From Colius striatus (taxonomy: Eukaryota > Chordata > Aves > Coliiformes > Coliidae), in contig NC_084768.1 in NCBI RefSeq assembly GCF_028858725.1, positions 3,579,853 through 3,643,852 on the forward strand: a stretch of DNA of 64,000 bases, written 5' to 3'. This document shows positions 955 through 60,389 of the stretch, in pieces. Position 1 is the stretch's first letter; the number at the start of each line of letters is the position of its first letter. The position numbers and the translations under genes are program-made. Under the pieces are notes generated by a model. The model saw nothing but the letters and a program-made list of their open reading frames with translations. It was not told the origin of the DNA and ran no database searches.

Positions 955-20535
<19,581 letters not shown>

Positions 20536-28300: not shown

Positions 28301-29860
28301 AGAGAGGATTAGGGAGGTGAGAACTCTGCCCTTGATTTTGATCTTACAGGGAACTTTCTTGAGAACCTGAGTAGAGTCCAGGATGGTACCAGTGCTGCTG
28401 GCCACACTTCTCTTGAATGGTAAGAATTTACCTGGAGATGATGAAAAGCATTACTCAGATTGGTAGGTGAGAGTCCAGTGTCAACAATGCATCCAAAAAT
28501 AGACCCCAGTTACTGCCTGAACTGACTGCTTGTGCACCATCTCTACATTGCTGGCACTTGAGTGTTTACTGTCAGATGGCTGCTCCTGACTGGGATGGCA
28601 CTTTGTAAGGGGAAGGTCCAGCACGAGAGGAATGTGGTCCCATTCCTGTGAGGTGAGTGTCCCCTTCAGGAAGCCTTGTAGCGTGCTATCTTGGCAGTTC
28701 CTGTATGGAAGGCAGTGGGAACCCAGGGTTAGAAGTTTCAGCATGAAGTGACTCTGGAGAGGGAGAACAGATGCCTCCCTCCTACCTACTGAGAGGAGGA
28801 GACCAATTCATCACTGCCAGTAAAACTGCTTCATGGCTGTGCCTCGATTTGTGGCATCACAAACAGTGAGTTTAACCCTTAAAGGTTTCATAGGGAATGC
28901 ATTTCACTTCTCTGTTCAGGACTCTGAGCTTTTGGGACCTCGAGAGAGTTCTTTAAGCCATTTAAATGTTGCCCCTCAACTTTGAAGACTAGAATTTCCC
29001 TCTTTTAAAACATGAACCGAGTTCATTACTCCAGAAACTTGGCCTTTGATAAAGATATCAAACACCCAAGGACCTCGAATCACTGTTAGCATCAAACAAT
29101 AATAACGAAACCATATCCAAATGAGTTCTCCTTATCTTCCACATCGTGGGTGTTTGGGGATGGTGTGACCAGCCAGCAGCTTTAGTACACCCATGTGAGA
29201 TACTTTGCTGTTGCACCTCTGAGGTAAGCAGCTGCTGATTTGGAGCTTGGCCAGGCTGTGCCAGCACAGCTTCCCACACATGTACAGAGGGGAAGCTTAA
29301 AGGTCCAACACAACTGTCACTGGACTCCAAGCACTGACTTCTATGGAAGCTGGGATGGCCCCTTAGCAAGGAATTCTATGTGTGCCCAACTGATTTTAGT
29401 GCTTTTGGTTTGAAAATCACTTTTAAACAGGCACAACGTGCTGAAATGCCACATCTGTGTGTAATTAAGCGGGAGCTAACAGGGAGTCTTCCTTTCTCCT
29501 TAGCAAAGGCAGGAGAGGGGAGAAAAGCTTCAGTTAAAACTGACTCGTTCTTCCTATGAACTTGGTCTAGATTCCCGTGGTATAATATTTTCTCCCATTG
29601 TTTTGTTAATCTCGGGTTTGGAAGGTTTCTTGACCTCTGTCCCACGTGAGGTGACGACTGTATTTCTAGAGAAGGATTTCTTCTTTAATTGGTGTGTCTT
29701 AAGGGTTCTGCTGCTGAAATAGAAGGAAAAGTCAGATTCTGTTCACTGCAGCCCGTGTATTCTTCCCGCATAACTGGTTGCTTTCACAACTGACAGGCAC
29801 GAAACAGATGTCTGACGGTTTCTGTGACGTTCCTTTGCCCCTTGGGACAAGTCAGGAGTC
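22331..29860. other. LEPR-PDE4B intergenic region
   Basis: These 7.5 kb lie between the probable LEPR end and the PDE4B CpG island. I see one old CR1 (25053-25163), a short TG run at 23929-23945 and no gene. All open frames are short and without recognisable similarity. Stretches near 22795-23160 and 25700-25890 are free of repeats and carry TAATTA-type motifs, so they may be regulatory. That cannot be shown from one sequence. Confidence 0.6.
25053..25163 (-). repeat. Old CR1 fragment
   Basis: This is a diverged CR1 3' end on the - strand ('gggtgggaagaggcctctggag', 'ccccctgctcgatgtagggt'). It differs strongly from the younger copies in the window. Confidence 0.7.
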
Positions 29861-30102
29861 GGACGCGGCTATCAGATCCTTTAAAAGTGTCCAGTTGTGC
29901 GATCTGTGCGCCCGCGCGTCCCAGGGCGCCGGCGGTGGCTGTGGCAGCCGCGGCTGAGCCGGCTCCGCGCCTCAGGCTGCCGGGTGCTGGAGGCAGCGCT
30001 TCCCGCGGCCGCTGCTCGGGCCGCTGTCCGCCCTGTGCATCGCAGAGCCCCGCAACGGTACGGGCTGCAGGAGCCCCGCAGAGCTGCTCCGGCTCAAGCC
30101 TC

Positions 30103-30188
30103 TGCTAAAGCAGGTCCCCCTCCACCAGGGCCCACGGGAACGTGTCCAGGCGGGTTTGGAAAGCTCCCGAGAAGGAGGCTCCATCTGC
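30103..30188 (-). repeat. CR1 relic inside the CpG island
   Basis: Read on the - strand, this resembles the CR1 3' region ('gaacgtgtccaggcgggttt', then 'gaaagctcccgagaaggagg'), which fits the usual 'gtgtccaggcgggttttgaa' and 'ctccagagaaggagactcc' blocks of CR1. It is old and diverged, with CG-rich changes. Confidence 0.6.
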
Positions 30189-30599
30189 AAGCACAGACTG
30201 GCGTTCGGGCTTTATCGCCGGGCGGTTTGCAGCAGACCGTCTCTCCAAGCTCCCCCTCTGCTCAGCGGGGCTGCTGGCCAAAGCCAGCTGAGCGAGGCCC
30301 AGGGGTACCGACGGCCACCGGCCCCGGAGGGCTGCAGCGGAGCCAGCCGCAGCGGCTGAGACACGGCGGCGGGCGGCGCTGGGCCCGCGCTCCCCGCCTC
30401 GGCTCCGGAGGCGCCCCCCGGCGCTGCCGCCCCCCCTCCCGGCGGCCGCGCCGGCTCCGCTGGGCCGCAGCGCCCACACCTGCAGCAAGGCCGGCCCGGC
30501 CCGGCCCGGCGCCGCCCCCGCGGGCGGGCGGAGGGGCAGGAAGCGGGGCGCCGAGGCGAGCCCGCCCCGCGCCCGCAGGGCACGGCGAGGAGGGAGCGC

Positions 30600-30805
30600 G
30601 GCGCGGCGCAGCCCAGCCGCCGGCGCAGCCCGGGCACGTTGGTGGCTCCGCTCGCTCCGCCGCGTTCAGCCGCCGCCCCGCTGCCATTGCCGGGAGAGCG
30701 ACGGAGCCGTGGAGCGCTGAGGAGCGGCAGCTGAGGGCGAAGCTGCGCCGCCGCGGGGACAGCGGCGGAGCCCTCCCGGAGACGGCGCCGGGGCCGCCGC
30801 CGGAG
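30600..30805 (+). other. PDE4B: Probable noncoding first exon of PDE4B1 (5' end uncertain)
   Basis: A strong donor, CCGGAG/GTAAGC, lies at 30805/30806 at the 3' side of the densest CpG part. Spliced to the acceptor at 57533, it would give a 5'UTR ahead of the ATG at 57599. The 5' border given is arbitrary because the start site is not known. Other donors in the island are possible. Confidence 0.4.
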
Positions 30806-33712
30806 GTAAGCGCTGACTCGGCTCCCTGCCCGCGGCTCCGGGCCGCCGCCCGCGCCTCGCCGCCGCTCAGCCGCCCGGAGCCGGCTCTCCCTCGGCCCTC
30901 GGGTGGGGGCCACCGGGGCTCCGGGGAGGGGGCGGCGGCGGAGGGCGCCGGGGTTGCCCGGGGACCGGGAGCCGCGGGGTGCGCGGGGTTAGCCGGGGTG
31001 CGCGGCGCGGCCACCTGCGCGCAGCAGGTCTGATCGAGGAAAACATCTGAGTCACTTGTGGGTTGTTTCGGTGGTTTCGGTAAGTTTTGTCGTATACAAT
31101 CACATGGCGTTGGGAGCTGGTAGTGTACAAAAGAAAGAAGAGCAAAAGGGTTACGGTTTTCCAAGGAGGAAAGATGCGCTTTGATTGTTGGGGTTTGAAA
31201 TTATTTCCCTGCAGTTTTTTCCCCTCCAGAATTTCTAGTGGAGCGAACCGGTTTATTTTGGAGCTGTTAAGGCGGTGTTGCTGCAGCATCGCCTTTCGTT
31301 TCAGCGTGTGGCCGGGAGTCGTGCTCTTCCTGCGCCGCACCTGCGGCCGTGGGCAGGTGGATGCCGTGCCGGGCCTCCACCTCTGGTACCCCCCAAGTGG
31401 TCTGTAGGCTTGAGTCCTGGTAACTTCTTGTCGGGTCGGCCCTCCCCAGTGCTACTTTGCCTGTGGCATTTTCTCTTCTAGGCTTTGCAGCTATGCATCA
31501 TGTTCACTAACGTGTGGTTTGAGTCAGTTTGCTTTTCCCGATTCCCCTTTTCTCAGTTCGGTGCCTGGTGGGAGCTGTGAGTTTAGAGAGGATCTGGAAG
31601 TTGAGTGTTCCCTCAGCGTAGCTCCACATCAGCTCCGACACAAGCGCTGCCTGCAAGCCCTTGGGGTGCCGTGCAGGGGAGCAGCAACGAGTGCTCCTTT
31701 CACCTCCTTGGGGGAAGGTTGAGGAGTGATGAACCAGCTCTGATAACGCAGCGAGCTATTTACTGTAGATCTCTTGGGGGGTGAACATAGCCATGGAGGT
31801 AAGGAGTTGTTTTGTGTGGTGCTCAGCATCTGCCGCAACAGGAATCCCAAGAGATCGCCTACACTGGCGAGAGAATCCCTGTTAGATTTGTTCAGTGCTG
31901 CTTTTTTGCTTTTCCTTCCCCCTCTGAAATCCTGATGTCCAGAGGAACCAGCAGTGAACGAGCCAAATCGTTGCGTTTGCACGTTGTGAACTCAACGAAA
32001 CAGAGAAGTTTTTCCAGGGCTTTGAGAGAGCTGCTCGTCTGCTGCATCCCTCGCTATCGGCTCCAGACATGGAGGCCAGATTGGAAACAAATCTCTGGTT
32101 TATAAATCGCCTAGAATCTAAAGCTCTTTAGTACAGAGAGTGCTTTTCTGGCACACTGGTAAGTGTGCTGCCTGCATATAGCAGATTATTCGTTGTAGTT
32201 ATCTGTTTCTCTTGCTATCGTGATCTGTTTTAATGTGTCTCCATGTGCCTGCTCAGGAACTCCATGTACACCTATATCTTACTTTGTTCTCATCTTTGGA
32301 CATTTTAGATTCCAGTCAACCATTTTTAATGGAATGCATAAACATGGACCTGAAGTCAAATACAAGGTTCAACATATTCAGGTTGAATTTGCATCCAGGT
32401 GGGAAAATTCAAGCTAAGTGTGCTCTGTGTGCTGGAGGCATACCAGATCCTGAGCCCATGCTGTTCTGGTATTTGTAGGTAGGACCCATTTCTGGTAGTA
32501 AGCAGGGTGCTGCCTTCTGAAAATACAGCATCCCCTCTTCCTAGCTAGGTTGTGGGAAAAACCTCTTCCTTGATCCTTGTGCCCTCTGGTCACCCCAGTT
32601 TCCTTCTTTGCATCAGTATATTTGTGTTCTTGATGAAAAAACATTGCTGTCCAAACCATTTTTCATACCTGTTGGTCTGACCACACTGAGCATCAGCAGC
32701 AGATCCTTCTGCTGCTCTGAAGTACTGTGAAAGTGCCACAGAGAGTTCCATTCATCATCTTTCCTCTCGCTTGTGCGGTTACTTGCCTGCCTCTCTGTTT
32801 GCCCAGCACTGGCAGCTTTGTGTCCAAGACCTTGCTATTATTCTTCTCCAACCACCCCTGTGTTTACTTCCCGGCTCTTTCCACCTCACGTGGCAGCCTC
32901 TCCTTATTCACCATTCAAATCCTTGCTCAAGAGTCTGACTTATCTGTGGGGAAGCTTAGAACAGATTAGCCGAGTAATCGTCTTTGCGAACACTAGTCTT
33001 ACTTAAAACATCATTACAATCAACTATCTTGACTTTCCCCATTGGAAATGGATAGCCAGGAATAGATTTGTAAAATCCTTCCTAAAATGGTCATTTTAAG
33101 AGCTGACAGGTCAGGCCAGTTGAGACAATTTGTTTTGCCCAGGCAATGCTGCCTTGGAGTAAGCCACGTGGTACGAGCTATCCCACTAAAGATGTGGGTA
33201 GTTCTTACACCTTGAGAAAAGCAGTGAGCAGTGGGTACATGGAGATCCCTTTGTTTAAATTAAATGCCCATCATACAGCAAATAAAGCCTGGAAGTCTAT
33301 ACACTAGTTCCATCAGTACATGAGATGATCTAATGATGGCAGTAGGATAAATACAGCCTTAGCAGATGGGGGGAAAAAAAGCTGTTAGAAAAGCGTGGAA
33401 CAAATGGGGCACCCAAAAGAACTCTCCTAAACTTGGACACTTATCACCAAGAAATGTGTGTCTGTGTATGTTAAATATTGCTTCAAAGGAAAAGGCCATT
33501 AACCTGATGTTAATCTGTAACCTGATGTTGTTTGTTACTCATGCTCTGTTTGTTTTTCTTTCCCTTGTATTTCCCTTAGTTTAGAGAATGGAAGTAATTT
33601 GTCAGTTTCACTTTCAGATCTTTGCTGCTGTAGTGTTTTGGTTTCAGGCAATGCAGATGAATGGTTATTTAGCTGTTTTAGGTAAAGTGTTTTAAGCTGA
33701 ATTTGCTTAAGC

Positions 33713-47187: not shown

Positions 47188-47530
47188 AATCATAGAATCA
47201 CAGAATGGTAGGGGTTGGAAGGGACCTTTAGAGATCATCCAGTCCAACCCCCCTGCAGAAGCAGGGTCACCTAGATCAGGTCACACAGGAACATGTCCAG
47301 GTGGGTCTTGAAGCCCTCCAAGGAAGGAGCCTCCACAACCCCTCTGGGCAGCCTGTGCCAGGGCTCCCTCACTGAAACACTGAAGGAGTTTGTTCTTATA
47401 TTTAAGTGGAACTTTTTGTGTTCCAGCTTCATCCCATCACCCCTTGCCCTGTTGCTGGCTACTATAGAAAAGAGGGATGTCCCAACCTCCTGACACCCAC
47501 CCTTTGGATAATTGTAACTATTAATAAGGC
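47188..47530 (-). repeat. CR1 LINE, 5'-truncated
   Basis: It reads on the - strand as the ORF2 C-terminal part (GGCQEVGTSLFSIVASNRAR, FHLNIRTNSFSVSVREPW, RLPRGVVEAPSLEGFKTH) and the CR1 3' end at 47188. The 5' border near 47530 is approximate. Confidence 0.92.
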
Positions 47531-50500
47531 CATTGCAGAGGTGAGTTAAATGTGGGGTTGCTTTTCTAACCCATGCATACACAGCTTGTGTACTCTTTCT
47601 GGGTTGCTCCTGTGCAGTGGTGAACGTAGCTGGTTCTCCGTTGCATTTCTGACTCTGCTTTGACTCTTGAGTGGTTTTGAGTCATTTGTTTATTTATTTA
47701 TTTGTTTTTCAAATGCTGTGAGATCTGGGGGTGAGAAAAGTGTTGTAATGATGTTAAAACCTAGGCAGGAGATGCTGAGCCAACAGTTAGTTTGACTGTT
47801 GATACGTGGCTGGTTTTCTTATGAGAGATGATGTACGTGTTCCAATATATTTCATAACATATTTGAGACAATGCACTGTAGCATGGAATGATTATTCCTA
47901 TACTGAATAATAGAGTAATAGCAGCAACTGCTGCACAAGATCTGTGATCATATTTGACCAAGAAAAATGCTGCTGCAGACAGAAACAATATGTTGTGCAT
48001 GGCTAGATGCTGTTTCCCTAGAAGTAACCTCGTTTTGTGCTCATTCAACAGCATGGAGAGCTCTCTCCCAAACTCCCTCTTTCTCCTTCCTTGGGCTCCT
48101 TACTGGATTGCCTTTTCTCAGCAGTCTAGGATGCACAATTTATGAAAATGCAATTTGTCATCTGCAGAGTCCTTCCTGGAAGAGAGGACACAGGCAGAAG
48201 GAAACTGGCAGCAGCTGTTTACCTTGGCACGGGGCATCGTTCTTCCTTTTCATGGAGCTGGTGTGTGTGTCTGTGGTTGGAAAAGCTCCTCACTTGATCT
48301 CGCTGCTGTGGAAGCATTTACTCTAATTGGCCATGCAATAGGTTTTGCAATGAAATTGCTTTGTTAGGTGGTGGTTTGTGGCCTGCAGGGTTGTGTTTTT
48401 GAGGCTGGGCTGTGAGATGAGCAGGACCTGCCTGGCTGTGACTATTGGGTAGAGCAAAGCACCGTGCTGCAGCAGGAAGAGCTCAGTCCCCAGCTGCTGA
48501 TTAGTGCCTTCTCCCGTTTGAAGATGCTGCTGGCTATCTGATCATGCTGGTTCAGCTCCTCATCTCCCATTTTATAAGCTATCTGCAAATAAGACAGAAC
48601 AGCAAGAAAGGTTATGGGAGACTCAAGGGAGATTCTTGTTAACTTCTATGGTGTTTTTACCTGCCTAAACTGTACAAGGATAGAACAGGGGACGGTGTGT
48701 CTGACTGGAGGTGGCACCTGACTCCTCACAGGATGAGGAAAGGCTCCTGGAACAGCAAGGAAGTGGTGTTCTTGCAGAAGGAGCCCACCTTGGCTGTAGC
48801 CCTGCACCATGATTTTGCCCTTTGCCTGCAGACCTCGTTGGCCAGGCATAGCTGGGCAGCAGATCCGAGATCTTGCCACAGCACTAGCACCAGTGTATGG
48901 GGTCAGCTTCTGCCCTGGGATGCAGATGCAAGGCTCAGATGCAGCAGCAATAAAATGGAGTAGCTAAGGCCATCTCTTGCATAACACAGAGTATTTGATG
49001 GTTTGATTTGAGTTCTGCTGTTCACAAGGCTGTTAGCGTTTCTCATAGATGCTTTGAACTTTCTCCTTCAGCTTCTTGCTGTGCAGCTGGTGTACAGTTC
49101 AGATTTCTTCTTACTATTGTGGGCTCCCTGCTGTGCAGGGCTCAGATAGCTTTATTTTGATTCTCTCAGGGACCTCTTGCTGTTCTGATTTTGCATTCCA
49201 TCTTTCCCCACTATTCTTCAGTGGGTTTTTTTTTGGTAAGGTTAGGAACAGTCCTCTGTTAAAATTGATCTGGAGGATGTGTGCTTCTGAGAATGCTCTT
49301 TATTTGTAGGCTTGCTTGTGTGTTTCTGTGCTTAGGATCATTCTGTTGCTTTGCTGCATGGCCCAGTATTTTATAAAGGGGGAAAAAAAAAAGTCCCTCT
49401 TGCAGGCTGTTTGAACTTGACCCTTCCCATAAAAACCATAGGGAAAAGAGATCTGAGGATTTTAGAACCTTTCCTCCTGGACTAGAGCAATAGCTGGGTG
49501 AGCTCCAGTTAAGAAATAAACCAGTGGCACGAGGCAAGTGCTGCATTAGCTGGTGGTGACACAGTAAGTTTCCCCACGCTGTTCATGCAGCACATGCTAA
49601 TCCTGCCTGATCTGCAGTGTTCCCCTTATCTGTGCAGCCCAGCAAGGCTTAGTGCATGATGCCCCTCTCCTAATAAAAACACGTGGGGAACACGAGCCTC
49701 TGCTTTTTCAAAACAACAACCAACCAATCTAAAGGGGAGAAATGTGTGTTGTGTGTGTTTTCTGTTGCACCAGATTTGGCTTTATTTTTAAACTGACTTT
49801 TTTTTTCCCCCCAAGGCATAATTAGTAATTGTTCTTTGCTCTCTGAATGTTGTTGAGCTCCACTCTGAGGAGTAGGAGGCTTCGCTAGTCATTTGCACAT
49901 GGAACAAGAAAGGTACAAATTGCATCTTTTAATAGCATGCTTCCCTTTCCTAGGTAATTCCCTTGCAAATCCTGTATGTGCTGCATGTAATGTGCTGTTA
50001 AATCTCATCCTTTGTTGCTGTCAGAAGTGATTTTTAAACTAATTGCATTTGGCTGTAATAGTAGACAAACTTAGAGTTAAAAACCATTCACATAGTAAAG
50101 AAAACAGTGGGTTTTTTGCAATTCTTTCTTCTCCCCAGGCTATTAACATTTTACCTGAAAGTTTCCTGGAGGGGAAAAAAAAATATGGTCATATTTTCTC
50201 AGCAGTGATAGTGAATAATATTGCTTGTGTTTCATGGGAGTGCTGCAGAGCATGTTGGGCCTAATGGCAGTAAGCAGTGTAATGACAGCTTCAAATTAGT
50301 ATTGGTTTTCCTATCATAACTGGAATAAACAGAAAGCAATGACAAGCTGATTGTAGCCTCTGCTGGAAATCACAGGGTTCCTGGACTTTCTGGAACAGAC
50401 TGACTTGGTTAGTCCCAGCTTTCATGACTGGGTTGCCAGAGAAAAGACAAGTCTTTGCAATCTTCTTAACCTTGGTGGCATCTCAGTAAGAGACCTCCTA

Positions 50501-50990: not shown

Positions 50991-51818
50991 CTTTTCAGAG
51001 TGTGTTTTCCCTTCTTCTTTCCCTTCTTCTTTCCCTTCTTCTTTCCCTTCTTCTTTCCCTTCTTCTTTCCCTTCTTCTTTCCCTTCTTCTTTCCCTTCTT
51101 CTTTCCCTTCTTCTTTCCCTTCTTCTTTCCCTTCTTCTTTCCCTTCTTCTTTCCCTTCTTCTTTCCCTTCTTCTTTCCCTTCTTCTTTCCCTTCTTCTTT
51201 CCCTTCTTCTTTCCCTTCTTCTTTCCCTTCTTCTTTCCCTTCTTCTTTCCCTTCTTCTTTCCCTTCTTCTTTCCCTTCTTCTTTCCCTTCTTCTTTCCCT
51301 TCTTCTTTCCCTTCTTCTTTCCCTTCTTCTTTCCCTTCTTCTTTCCCTTCTTCTTTCCCTTCTTCTTTCCCTTCTTCTTTCCCTTCTTCTTTCCCTTCTT
51401 CTTTCCCTTCTTCTTTCCCTTCTTCTTTCCCTTCTTCTTTCCCTTCTTCTTTCCCTTCTTCTTTCCCTTCTTCTTTCCCTTCTTCTTTCCCTTCTTCTTT
51501 CCCTTCTTCTTTCCCTTCTTCTTTCCCTTCTTCTTTCCCTTCTTCTTTCCCTTCTTCTTTCCCTTCTTCTTTCCCTTCTTCTTTCCCTTCTTCTTTCCCT
51601 TCTTCTTTCCCTTCTTCTTTCCCTTCTTCTTTCCCTTCTTCTTTCCCTTCTTCTTTCCCTTCTTCTTTCCCTTCTTCTTTCCCTTCTTCTTTCCCTTCTT
51701 CTTTCCCTTCTTCTTTCCCTTCTTCTTTCCCTTCTTCTTTCCCTTCTTCTTTCCCTTCTTCTTTCCCTTCTTCTTTCCCTTCTTCTTTCCCTTTCCCTCC
51801 TTTTCTGAGTGTGTTTTC
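50991..51818. repeat. 19-bp direct repeat flanking the 12-bp array
   Basis: CTTTTCAGAGTGTGTTTTC (50991-51009) and CTTTTCTGAGTGTGTTTTC (51800-51818) match at 18 of 19 positions and bracket the array exactly. This suggests that the array and flank arose by a duplication or slippage event that included this sequence. Confidence 0.85.
51009..51788. repeat. Minisatellite: 65 perfect tandem copies of a 12-bp polypyrimidine unit
   Basis: The unit is CCCTTCTTCTTT, repeated without any visible change over 780 bases, then decaying into CCCTTT CCCTCC (51789-51800). One strand is pure pyrimidine and the other pure purine (AAAGAAGAAGGG), with mirror-like symmetry that can form triplex (H-DNA) structures. 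All six frames are open, which gives false ORFs such as KKGK and FFPF repeats. It lies in PDE4B intron 1. Confidence 0.97.
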
Positions 51819-54606: not shown

Positions 54607-55076
54607 AGAGGGACAGGGAAGTGCTGGAGAGAGTCCAGCACAGGGCACCAAGATGATGGGGACTGGAACATCTTTCATACGAGGAAAGGCTGCGGGACCT
54701 GGGGCTGTTTAGTCTGGAGAAGAGGAGACTGAGGGGGGATCTTATTAACAGTTACAAATACCTAAAGGGTGGGTGTCAGGAGGTTGGGACATCCCTCTTT
54801 TCTATAGCAGCCAGCAACAGGACAAGGGATGATGGGATGAAGCTGGAACACAAAAAGTTCCACTTAAACATAAGAAGAAACTGTTTGAGTGTTTCAGTGA
54901 GGGAGCCCTGGCACAGGCTGCCCAGAGGGGTTGTGGAGGCTCCTTCCTTGGAGGGCTTCAAGCCCCACCTGGACACGTTCCTGTGTGACCTGATCTAGGT
55001 GATCCTGCTTCTGCAGGGGGTTGGACTGGATGATCTCTAAAGGTCCCTTCCCACCCCTACCATTCTATGATATTCT
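54607..55076 (+). repeat. CR1 LINE, 5'-truncated
   Basis: It starts at the 'agagggacagggaagtgctg' block of ORF2, continues through the C-terminal coding part and ends at the 'ccattctatgat' 3' end. It has a small deletion in the 'gccaccaagatgatcagggg' block compared with its sisters. Confidence 0.92.
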
Positions 55077-57533: not shown

Positions 57534-57640
57534 GTTGCCCATCTGAGGAAGTTGAACAACAAGAGGTTGTTGTAACAAGGTGCACTTTAATCGCAATAAT
57601 GAAGAAAAGCAGAAGTGTCATGACAGTAACTGCAGATGAA
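57534..57640 (+). CDS. PDE4B: PDE4B1 exon with start codon (5'UTR 57534-57598, coding 57599-57640)
   Basis: The acceptor is TTTCAG ending at 57533 after a strong pyrimidine tract, and the donor GTAAGT is at 57641. ATG at 57599-57601 begins MKKSRSVMTVTADE, matching PDE4B1 except for small changes (human reads ...MADDN). The 65 bases upstream in the exon are open in the ATG frame. The family start supports 57599, but in-frame translation from upstream cannot be excluded from this exon alone. Confidence 0.93.
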
Positions 57641-60389
57641 GTAAGTTTCTTCGCAAGACATGTCTTATTTTCCCCCAGTTCTTTGGGAAAATGAGATAAA
57701 AAGTTTTGTCTTATTTTGTAAGTGTCAACTGGTTTTGCTTTGATTACTCATTGATTTGGTTAGAGTTGTTTTCAGTTCATACAGGAGGCAGAAAATAAGC
57801 CCAGCACATTTAAAAATAAACCTGCCAACTCCCACACCGGGAGTTTAGTGAAGTCTGAAGCAGAGCATATACTTGGCTTTGGTCAATGTTAATGCTGGCA
57901 GACAGCAGGGAACATTGCCATACCTTATGGAAGAGCAACAGAGCTGGGGAGGGGTCTGGAGCACAAGTCCTATGAGTAGCAACTGAGGGAACTGGGGGTG
58001 TTCAGCCTGAAGTATCACTCTACAGCTCCCTGACAGGAGACTGTGGCCAGGTGGGAGTCGGGGTGTTCTCCCAAGTTACAAGTGAAAGGACAAGAGGAAA
58101 CTGCTTTAATTTGTGCCAGTGGAGGTTTAGATTAGAGATTGGGAAAAAACTTTCCCCAAAAGGGTTGTCAAACCCTGGCACAGGCTGCCAGGGAGGTGGT
58201 GGAGTCATCATCCCTGGAGGGATTCAAAAGCTGTGGAGCTGAGGGACATGGTTTTGGCAGTGCTGGAGGAATGATTCCATTCTATCTTAAAGGTCTTTTG
58301 CAACCTCAGTGATTCTATGGTGCTCTTTTCTGGATCCCATCTTTGTGCATGTACTACACTTCATAGAATCATATCTCTCTCCACTTTAGTTGCTGAACAC
58401 TTAATGTGGTGATGCATGTGTTATTCCATTTCTACACTCGCTTATCATCAGCATAATCCCCTATTAATTAAAATCCATTTCCTATTCTCTAGACATATGT
58501 AGCAGTTTGTAATGATGGTGTGATAACCACAGCCTAATTGGCTTGTTTGTCACAGCTGGGGCTCACCAAAGATAGAAAACCATGTGGAATGTGTATGAAA
58601 ATAGAGTGGAGGTGTGGAACCTGACAGTGTATCCTATAGCACTCCTTCAGTAAGTCAGTGTTTCCTTTATGTACTTAGACCACGTGTTGCACTGCTTGAT
58701 CATCAGTTTGCTTGAGGATGATGTTTAGTCCACTCAATCCTTGCTGGTTTTAATAAAAGCAGGCATCTGAACTGTAATGGAAGTCCCAGACTGGTTTGGG
58801 CTGGAAGGGGCCTTAGAGACCATCTCTCATTCCAACCCCTTGCTATGAGCAGGGACACATTCCACTAGCCCAGGTTGCTCCAATCCTCATCCAACCTGCC
58901 CTTGAGCACTTCCAGGGATGGGACAACCATAACCTGTCTGGGCAACCTGTTAGAATACTCTGCTGTATTCTAGAATCTAAGGCTAGAATACTGTGACATA
59001 GTAAAAGTAGTATGAAGTTTGATAACAAAGGGTTGTTAAGTCAGATCCTCGTATAGAAGCATTTCCTTTCTGAGGTTCCTAGAAATATTTTTGACCTGCT
59101 TTGTTGTTGTGAAAGAGTAGGGTTTGGTTCACTGAAGATCTCTAGTGTAGTTTTGACGACACAACACACCAACCAATTTAAATGTCTAAGTCATTATGAT
59201 TTCAGTGCCTTGGTAAACATGGAACTGCCCAGTATGCCTTGTAGCACTTCAGGCCTTTGTGCAAAGAGTAAAGTAGCTGGGCACCATGTTGTTTGCTCTG
59301 TGAATGCTTCAAATGGTTATGGGGTGGGCAAGTCAACAGGGCTGCCATAGATATATACATACACTGATTATAATAACCCTCTGGCGTCTGCTGGTAGCTC
59401 ATCACATGCAATACAGAAATATTCTCTTTGGTATTGGACAGTTATATTTGACTAACTAAATTCTTGGAGGAAGACCAAAACTGGCAACAGTCTTGCAGTG
59501 CTGTTCCACTGTGGGAGAACTGGCTTGGGTTTGAGAAGACTGACAGCTAGTTCTGTGATCATGGTGATGTCTTTAAATAAAAGTCAGTGGAAGCTATAAG
59601 AAGAGAAACTGCTTCAACTGGTCAAAACTGGGGTTTTTTTGTGAGACCATTTCTACTAGCAATGCCAGACATGGGTCTGAGTAGCCTGGCTGGAAGTTCT
59701 TCTCAGTGCATAGCTCCTGGATATTTCAGGATGTATCTAAGTGCCTCTAAGTATCAAGTATTCTTGGCACCTTTCTCTGCCTGGTGATTCATCAAAAAAC
59801 AAGTGGCTAACCAGTATGCTTGTGCTGTAGAAAGGAATGGTACTTTAGATGGATGTCAAGTGGAATGTTCTCTGAAAAATACCAGAAGTTTAGTGTGTGG
59901 CCCAAGTGACCTGGATTATTGAAGTCTTCATTTAGGTTAGAATTGGCTGTTGAATTTGTCTTGGACAAGTTGTGTGAATTTTGAAGTTAATTCATAACTT
60001 GACAGACTAACAATGCAATGCAGTCAGACTCTGCCAAGGTTACATTTATCTTTTGTGATTAGCTAGGGCTGTATAACAACAATTAAATGTGTTTTATCCT
60101 CGTGGAAGACAACATTTGTTTGCAGGAGTTCAGTGCCTTTTCTCTCTTTGCAGAATGCTCTGGATTACCTGGACTGTGGGCTGAGTAAATCCTACAGTAC
60201 CTCTACTCATGCTCTGGGCATAGACCTCTGGAGAGGAAGAAGATGTTGTTCTGGTAATCTGCAGTTACCACCACTATCCCAAAGACAAACAGAAAAAGCA
60301 AGGACACCCGACAGAGACATTGTCTGTAGACCAACGACTCTGCCTTTGTTGACACCTCCAAGTATCGCAATCACCACTTACCAAGACTG
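57534..60389 (+). CDS. PDE4B: cAMP-specific 3',5'-cyclic phosphodiesterase 4B, isoform PDE4B1 N-terminus (two exons, 3' partial)
   Basis: PDE4B hydrolyses cAMP to AMP and limits cAMP signalling in the cytosol. The coding part starts with ATG at 57599 and joins 14 codons of the first coding exon with 78 full codons plus two bases of the second, about 93 residues. This matches the 90-odd-residue N-terminus unique to the long PDE4B1 form: MKKSRSVMTV, then SKSY, then the hallmark GIDLWRGRRCCSGNLQLPPL and SQRQ. These residues precede the regulatory UCR1/UCR2 domains and the catalytic domain, which lie beyond the window. The N-terminus determines isoform location and partners. The phase at the end (Cys codon split after TG) fits the family's Cys at this point. 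The promoter is the CpG island 26.7 kb upstream. Confidence 0.94.
57938..58321 (+). repeat. Old CR1 fragment
   Basis: It is the same region as the young copies but of another subfamily: 'gagggaactgggggtgttca', 'aaaggacaagaggaaactgc' and 'aaaccctggcacaggctgcc', ending in GTGATTCTATGG. It carries many differences and indels. Confidence 0.85.
58790..58953 (-). repeat. Old CR1 fragment
   Basis: The - strand CR1 3' part: 'gggctggaaggggccttaga', 'ttccaaccccttgctatgag' and 'cttgagcacttccagggatg' (as read on +). It is an older subfamily that lacks the terminal octamers. Confidence 0.85.
60154..60389 (+). CDS. PDE4B: PDE4B1 second coding exon
   Basis: The acceptor is TTTGCAG ending at 60153 and the donor GTAGGT at 60390. 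It encodes NALDYLDCGLSKSYSTSTHA, then LGIDLWRGRRCCSGNLQLPP, SQRQTEKARTPDRD and TTLPLLTPPSIAITTYQDC (Cys completed by the next exon). If the donor were ignored the frame would read YQDW and hit a stop at once, which supports the splice. The next PDE4B exon is outside the window. Confidence 0.95.

Follow-up and report, generated by a model that had tools for sequence, protein, structure and literature searches.

We conclude that the perfect 12-bp pyrimidine array in PDE4B is most likely a single-locus, recently homogenised, probably intronic minisatellite that is probably neutral, and we give this reading a probability of roughly 0.77. The array is ordinary in kind, with no known function. In the mechanism that we propose, a pyrimidine-rich core with a copy of a 19-bp sequence on either side would have expanded in place, presumably by slippage or unequal exchange, and homogenisation of the units would have been recent enough that no substitution is left in the array. 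A single locus of this type matters little. The array offers a clear-cut candidate young VNTR on which the sizing of repeats in assemblies can be tested.

Extent and purity of the array

A direct count in the window (the whole 64-kb stretch of Colius striatus DNA that was analysed) gave 65 copies of the unit CCCTTCTTCTTT, all exact and all on the + strand, from 51009 to 51788. Copy number and position had been proposed in an earlier sequence-only reading, and its coordinates are right to the base. TRF reports 65.7 copies with 100% match and 0 indels over the slightly longer tract listed in Table 1. The decay at the 3' edge described in the same reading is also present, the array degenerating there into CCCTTTCCCTCCTTTTC. 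The longest period-12 self-match streak is 776 bases, compared to 21 bases for the best of the periods between 1 and 59 once multiples of 12 are set aside, and the period-12 signal is, therefore, not due to chance. Nowhere else in the window does a perfect period-12 run reach 36 bp, and TRF detects three further arrays, of 29-54 bp, in the rest of it. The head-to-tail units have a length within the range of ~10-60 bp that defines minisatellites, or VNTRs.

Table 1. Positions of the array, its edges, two related arrays and the surrounding gene features. Plain coordinates refer to the window; L017 and L029 are segments downstream of the window.
Feature	Position	Strand	Details
Perfect period-12 pyrimidine array, unit CCCTTCTTCTTT	51006..51793	+	788 bp; sequence count and TRF
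Pyrimidine-only stretch (array and degenerate 3' edge)	51005..51806	+	802 nt
Left 19-bp direct-repeat copy, CTTTTCAGAGTGTGTTTTC	50991..51009	+	pairwise comparison of array flanks
Right 19-bp direct-repeat copy, CTTTTCTGAGTGTGTTTTC	51800..51818	+	1 mismatch to the left copy
CpG island; the profile shows no second one in the window	29501..32000		1-kb overlapping windows, GC 0.53-0.79, CpG o/e 0.68-0.99
PDE4B first coding exon, coding part MKKSRSVMTVTADE	57599..57640	+	tblastn 12/14 residues, E 0.15 alone
Match over the second coding exon of long-form PDE4B	60124..60378	+	tblastn 69% over 85 residues, E 1e-31
Pure-pyrimidine array, PDE4B intron downstream of the window	L017:5871-7015	sense	1145 nt, period 15, 90% match
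Pure-pyrimidine array, PDE4B intron downstream of the window	L029:1316-1662	sense	347 nt, period 5, 96% match

Several other identities were considered for the array. Long open frames cross it because the unit length is a multiple of three, and a protein-coding array was rejected. A decoy 3' splice site is unlikely, since there is no A between 50999 and 51808 and, thus, no branch-point A within the usual reach. No Rfam family at gathering score and no tRNA was detected in the window, and no single-strand secondary structure was predicted for 120-nt pieces of either strand with RNA or DNA parameters (ViennaRNA, G4 option). Among the matches listed from the open-licence literature, we found no account of the array.

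A study of the chicken genome (galGal4) gives 12,310 minisatellite arrays with units of 11-60 bp and 123 different units (PMC4992247); the likeness to the PDE4B array is one of class. Short-tandem-repeat introns have also been described in several chicken genes, which, unlike the PDE4B array, are GC-rich and G4-rich (PMC6792250).

Probable location in intron 1 of PDE4B

The array is located 5' of the first coding exon of PDE4B, which supports the placement in intron 1 made in the sequence-only reading; the CpG island and the coding-exon context make intron 1 probable. The coding exons were identified using the human PDE4B1 protein as the query. The first is preceded by the 3' splice-site-like sequence TTTTTTTCTTTCAG and followed by GTAAGT. 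The match to the second starts with residues that precede the likely acceptor. Over the following 200 kb of the contig, PDE4B residues 91-736 are covered in order on the + strand by 11 tblastn rows (E <=1e-3). Pfam PDEase_I was found in two of the four PDE4B exon translations scanned, with one score 0.1 bit below the curated cut-off.

The CpG island, which is presumably the promoter and 5' exon of PDE4B, sits between a leptin-receptor exon and the PDE4B coding exons. The leptin-receptor exon was recognised upstream by a match to Lep_receptor_Ig (Pfam) in 4726-5250; the open frame at 19747-20535, in which Pfam gave no match, we take to be the end of LEPR. With the island upstream of it, the array is probably intronic rather than upstream of PDE4B. 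If the CpG island is the PDE4B promoter, the array is intronic and (CCCUUCUUCUUU)65 forms part of the transcript.

The exact three-unit string is found at one locus

In the assembly (191 contigs, 1.21 Gb), an exact 36-mer of three units has 63 forward matches, all of which are at the array, and 0 matches on the reverse strand (1,212,370,026 bases searched). For this exact string there are, thus, not several loci as for a dispersed satellite, and a captured piece of a genome-wide satellite was rejected. Because the exact three-unit string is present nowhere else in the assembly, expansion in place is the simplest reading. Outside this genome, a two-unit 24-mer and the 19-mer each gave 0 matches in IMG/VR, and the 36-mer gave 0 matches in a bacterial/archaeal set, which may omit records near the window.

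The 19-bp direct repeat at the array edges

The near-identical 19-mers that had been noticed at both edges are real, with 18 of 19 positions identical and an A/T mismatch at the seventh base as the sole difference. Beyond the 19-mers, the flanks are unlike, with matches at 2/12 positions just upstream and 1/12 just downstream. If either A or T is accepted at the variable base, the 1.21 Gb contain three exact copies of the 19-mer, namely the two at the array edges and a third on a different contig, and a dispersed repeat was rejected on this count; when up to one mismatch is allowed, it is found at 13 places in the assembly vs 6 for a reversed-pattern control. In a local-alignment null, which is inflated by dispersed repeats, 21 of 19,333 random 60-bp pairs drawn from the window score at least as high as the flank pair. 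TRF identified 31 non-overlapping arrays in the 264 kb made up of the window and the next 200 kb, and 13 of these passed a length filter for a comparison of flanks. In three of the 13, including the period-12 array, the flanks are more alike than 95% of the null, which is here also inflated by repeats. As two other arrays have the same property, flank similarity is not peculiar to the period-12 array.

In the model for minisatellite birth by slippage between short direct repeats, the flanking repeat forms part of the repeated unit. The array departs from this model: the 19-mer is present once per edge and is absent from the units, and only its end overlaps the pyrimidine run. The sequence-only reading had gone further and suggested that a unit containing the flank was duplicated before the inside expanded. 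The direct repeat on which this suggestion was built stands; the larger duplicated unit is not visible because flank similarity ends at 19 bp. Two histories fit the flanks. In one, a short duplication arose when a pyrimidine core was inserted; in the other, a tandem duplication was followed by loss. We consider it possible, albeit somewhat doubtful, that the 19-bp repeat was left behind by an insertion or a filled-in staggered break that brought in a pyrimidine fragment, which later expanded. Such an origin would be compatible with the minisatellite reading, and it would account for a direct repeat that is clean, with the similarity ending abruptly on both sides, and for a 19-mer that is otherwise nearly unique in the genome. 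However, no donor with three perfect units exists elsewhere in the assembly, a tandem duplication with later loss leaves an identical picture, and the similar flanks at two of the other arrays weigh against a special event at this one.

Age of the array and fidelity of the assembly

The sequence-only reading had offered two explanations for the perfect purity, a very recent event or an assembly artefact. Our data favor the first in the form of recent homogenisation. With 0 changes in 788 bp, the upper age of the array (95%) would be ~1.5-3.2 Myr without homogenisation, assuming rates of 1.2-2.5e-9 changes per site per year. The 19-mer pair has 1 mismatch in 38 bases compared to 0 in 788 bases of the array (Fisher p = 0.046, a value that rests on one base), weakly suggesting that the array was homogenised after the 19-mer had been duplicated. 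Purity varies among the arrays across the same 264 kb, from perfect (240 bp, period 20) down to 82-91% match, in a TRF list of arrays of at least 100 bp drawn from 58 overlapping rows. This spread is what ordinary turnover would give.

Under the second explanation, the real tract is of a smaller or greater length or is heterogeneous, and its consensus was evened out or mis-sized in assembly or polishing. A consensus error could likewise yield perfect identity over 788 bp, but the case for it is weakened by two observations, and we regard it as improbable. First, neither the window nor the next 200 kb contains an N, which together with 1.21 Gb in 191 contigs suggests the use of long reads, which would span the 788 bp. 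Second, two nearby pyrimidine arrays in PDE4B retain indels and variants (1133 bp at 90% and 347 bp at 96% match). Evening-out of arrays is, thus, not a general feature of the assembly.

Potential for triplex, G4 and R-loop formation

The sequence-only reading had also pointed out that long homopurine-homopyrimidine mirror tracts can form triplexes and R-loops and can stall polymerases. We consider it highly improbable that the array acts as such a non-B element, in the form of either H-DNA or an R-loop. In favor of one are the homopurine-homopyrimidine tract of 802 nt and the agreement of the unit with its reverse, which reaches 10/12 positions in the best rotation. However, among 300 shuffled units, 265 score 10/12, 35 score 12/12 and none scores worse. 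The arm cut-off for H-DNA is ~10 nt, and the longest perfect mirror arm in the array is 8 nt (spacers 0-20). As for G4, G3 runs recur every 12 nt and give 63 overlapping G4-like matches if loops of up to 12 nt are allowed; canonical G4 motifs (four G3 runs, loops of 1-7 nt) have 0 matches in the array. On these grounds, both a mirror repeat with H-DNA and a canonical G4 were rejected. The (GAA)n repeat of FXN in Friedreich ataxia is a parallel in location and composition, being a first-intron purine-pyrimidine expansion with related GAA/TTC triplets. However, (GAA)n is a perfect mirror with a score of 1.0 compared to 0.83 for the PDE4B array, and FXN RNA bears the purine strand. In published S1-seq work, pyrimidine repeats that are not mirror repeats were enriched slightly or not at all.

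R-loop formation in the direction of PDE4B transcription is likewise not supported. Using nearest-neighbour parameters, the sense RNA:DNA hybrid is predicted to be weaker than the duplex by 3.22 kcal/mol per 12 bp, while an antisense transcript would favor the hybrid, which is predicted to be stronger than the duplex (-3.69 kcal/mol per 12 bp). For comparison, the hybrid sums in 257 PDE4B windows that avoid the three pyrimidine arrays have a mean of -0.49 and a maximum of 0.92. A published parallel is the human PKD1 gene, in which introns 21 and 22 have long pyrimidine tracts on the sense strand. The sense strand of intron 22 is rich in C, and in vitro this intron gave R-loops under antisense transcription only (PMC10873753). 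Intron 21 has numerous G4 motifs and an inhibitory effect on replication, and one reference title in the source refers to a mirror-repeat tract (PMC11696556). By contrast, the PDE4B array consists of a single perfect 12-bp unit without canonical G4 or mirror symmetry. Thus, the lack of mirror symmetry, the weak sense hybrid and the PKD1 analogue make triplexes and sense R-loops unlikely at the array.

If the array had any biochemical effect, it would most likely be in RNA, where UCUU sites could bind PTBP1-like proteins; triplex or R-loop formation during PDE4B transcription appears less likely than such an effect. The motif TCTT (UCUU in RNA) is present 130 times in the 788-nt array vs 186 times in the remaining 25.2 kb that separate the CpG island and the first coding exon.

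Strand pattern of long pyrimidine tracts in PDE4B

The PDE4B span, i.e. the 208.6 kb bounded by the CpG island and the last PDE4B coding match, contains three pyrimidine arrays longer than 300 nt, and all three are on the sense strand (3/3, p = 0.25 on their own). Together, these tracts comprise 2294 nt with no purine, and the two downstream arrays are purine-free although their units vary. Among pure tracts of at least 25 nt, seven of seven are sense pyrimidine and none is purine (binomial 0.016), in a comparison based on one gene and on a threshold set after seeing the data; lowering the threshold gives counts of 16 to 12 at 20 nt (p = 0.57) and of 59 to 55 at 15 nt. A common origin of the three 37-nt pyrimidine tracts in PDE4B was rejected because their sequences differ. 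In human and mouse introns, the sense strand has T > A but G > C (PMC10030826), so that only the T part of the strand pattern would be expected. The 7:0 pattern is not expected if tracts were placed regardless of transcription, and this leaves room for selection.

It is, therefore, conceivable that the sense pyrimidine arrays in PDE4B have been kept by selection, or by a filter linked to transcription, and act as a docking platform for PTBP1 in the pre-mRNA; however, we give this only a slim chance. In addition to the strand pattern of the arrays and of the longest tracts, a precedent exists in PNCTR, a tandem UC-rich RNA with many PTBP1-type sites, as the PDE4B array transcript would be, which binds and sequesters PTBP1 (PMC11294396). 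Nevertheless, PNCTR derives from an rDNA spacer, while the PDE4B repeat would be intronic and is a putative PTBP1 target. The strand pattern itself comes from one gene, fades at the lower thresholds and is in part anticipated by the T excess of introns. Also, the sense hybrid of the period-5 array is predicted to be about neutral (+0.08) and, thus, not disfavoured; as this hybrid is approximately as stable as the duplex, R-loop avoidance explains the strand pattern poorly.

By extension, and with similarly long odds, we speculate that across the genome long intronic polypyrimidine arrays may survive mostly in the sense orientation, since arrays turned the other way would lead to R-loops and to splicing enhancers rich in purines, and that the PDE4B pre-mRNA may be a multivalent PTBP1 platform. 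If the one-strand pattern held across many introns, it would provide a natural test of whether transcription-linked structures and splicing signals determine which long purine-pyrimidine arrays are tolerated in genes.

Other repeats in the region

Five mutually similar open frames in the window, located at 4233-4670 (-), 12951-13412 (+), 14224-14679 (+), 47271-47681 (-) and 54657-54998 (+), presumably resemble the 3' end of a CR1 LINE; a Pfam scan of one of the five gave no match. Two further tandem arrays are found beyond the last PDE4B coding match. One is a 1.5-kb array with a period of ~49 and 82% match (L030:8435-9965), which lies ~3.8 kb past this match, and the other is a perfect array of 12 copies of a 20-bp unit (L032:8634-8873; 240 bp, 100% match).
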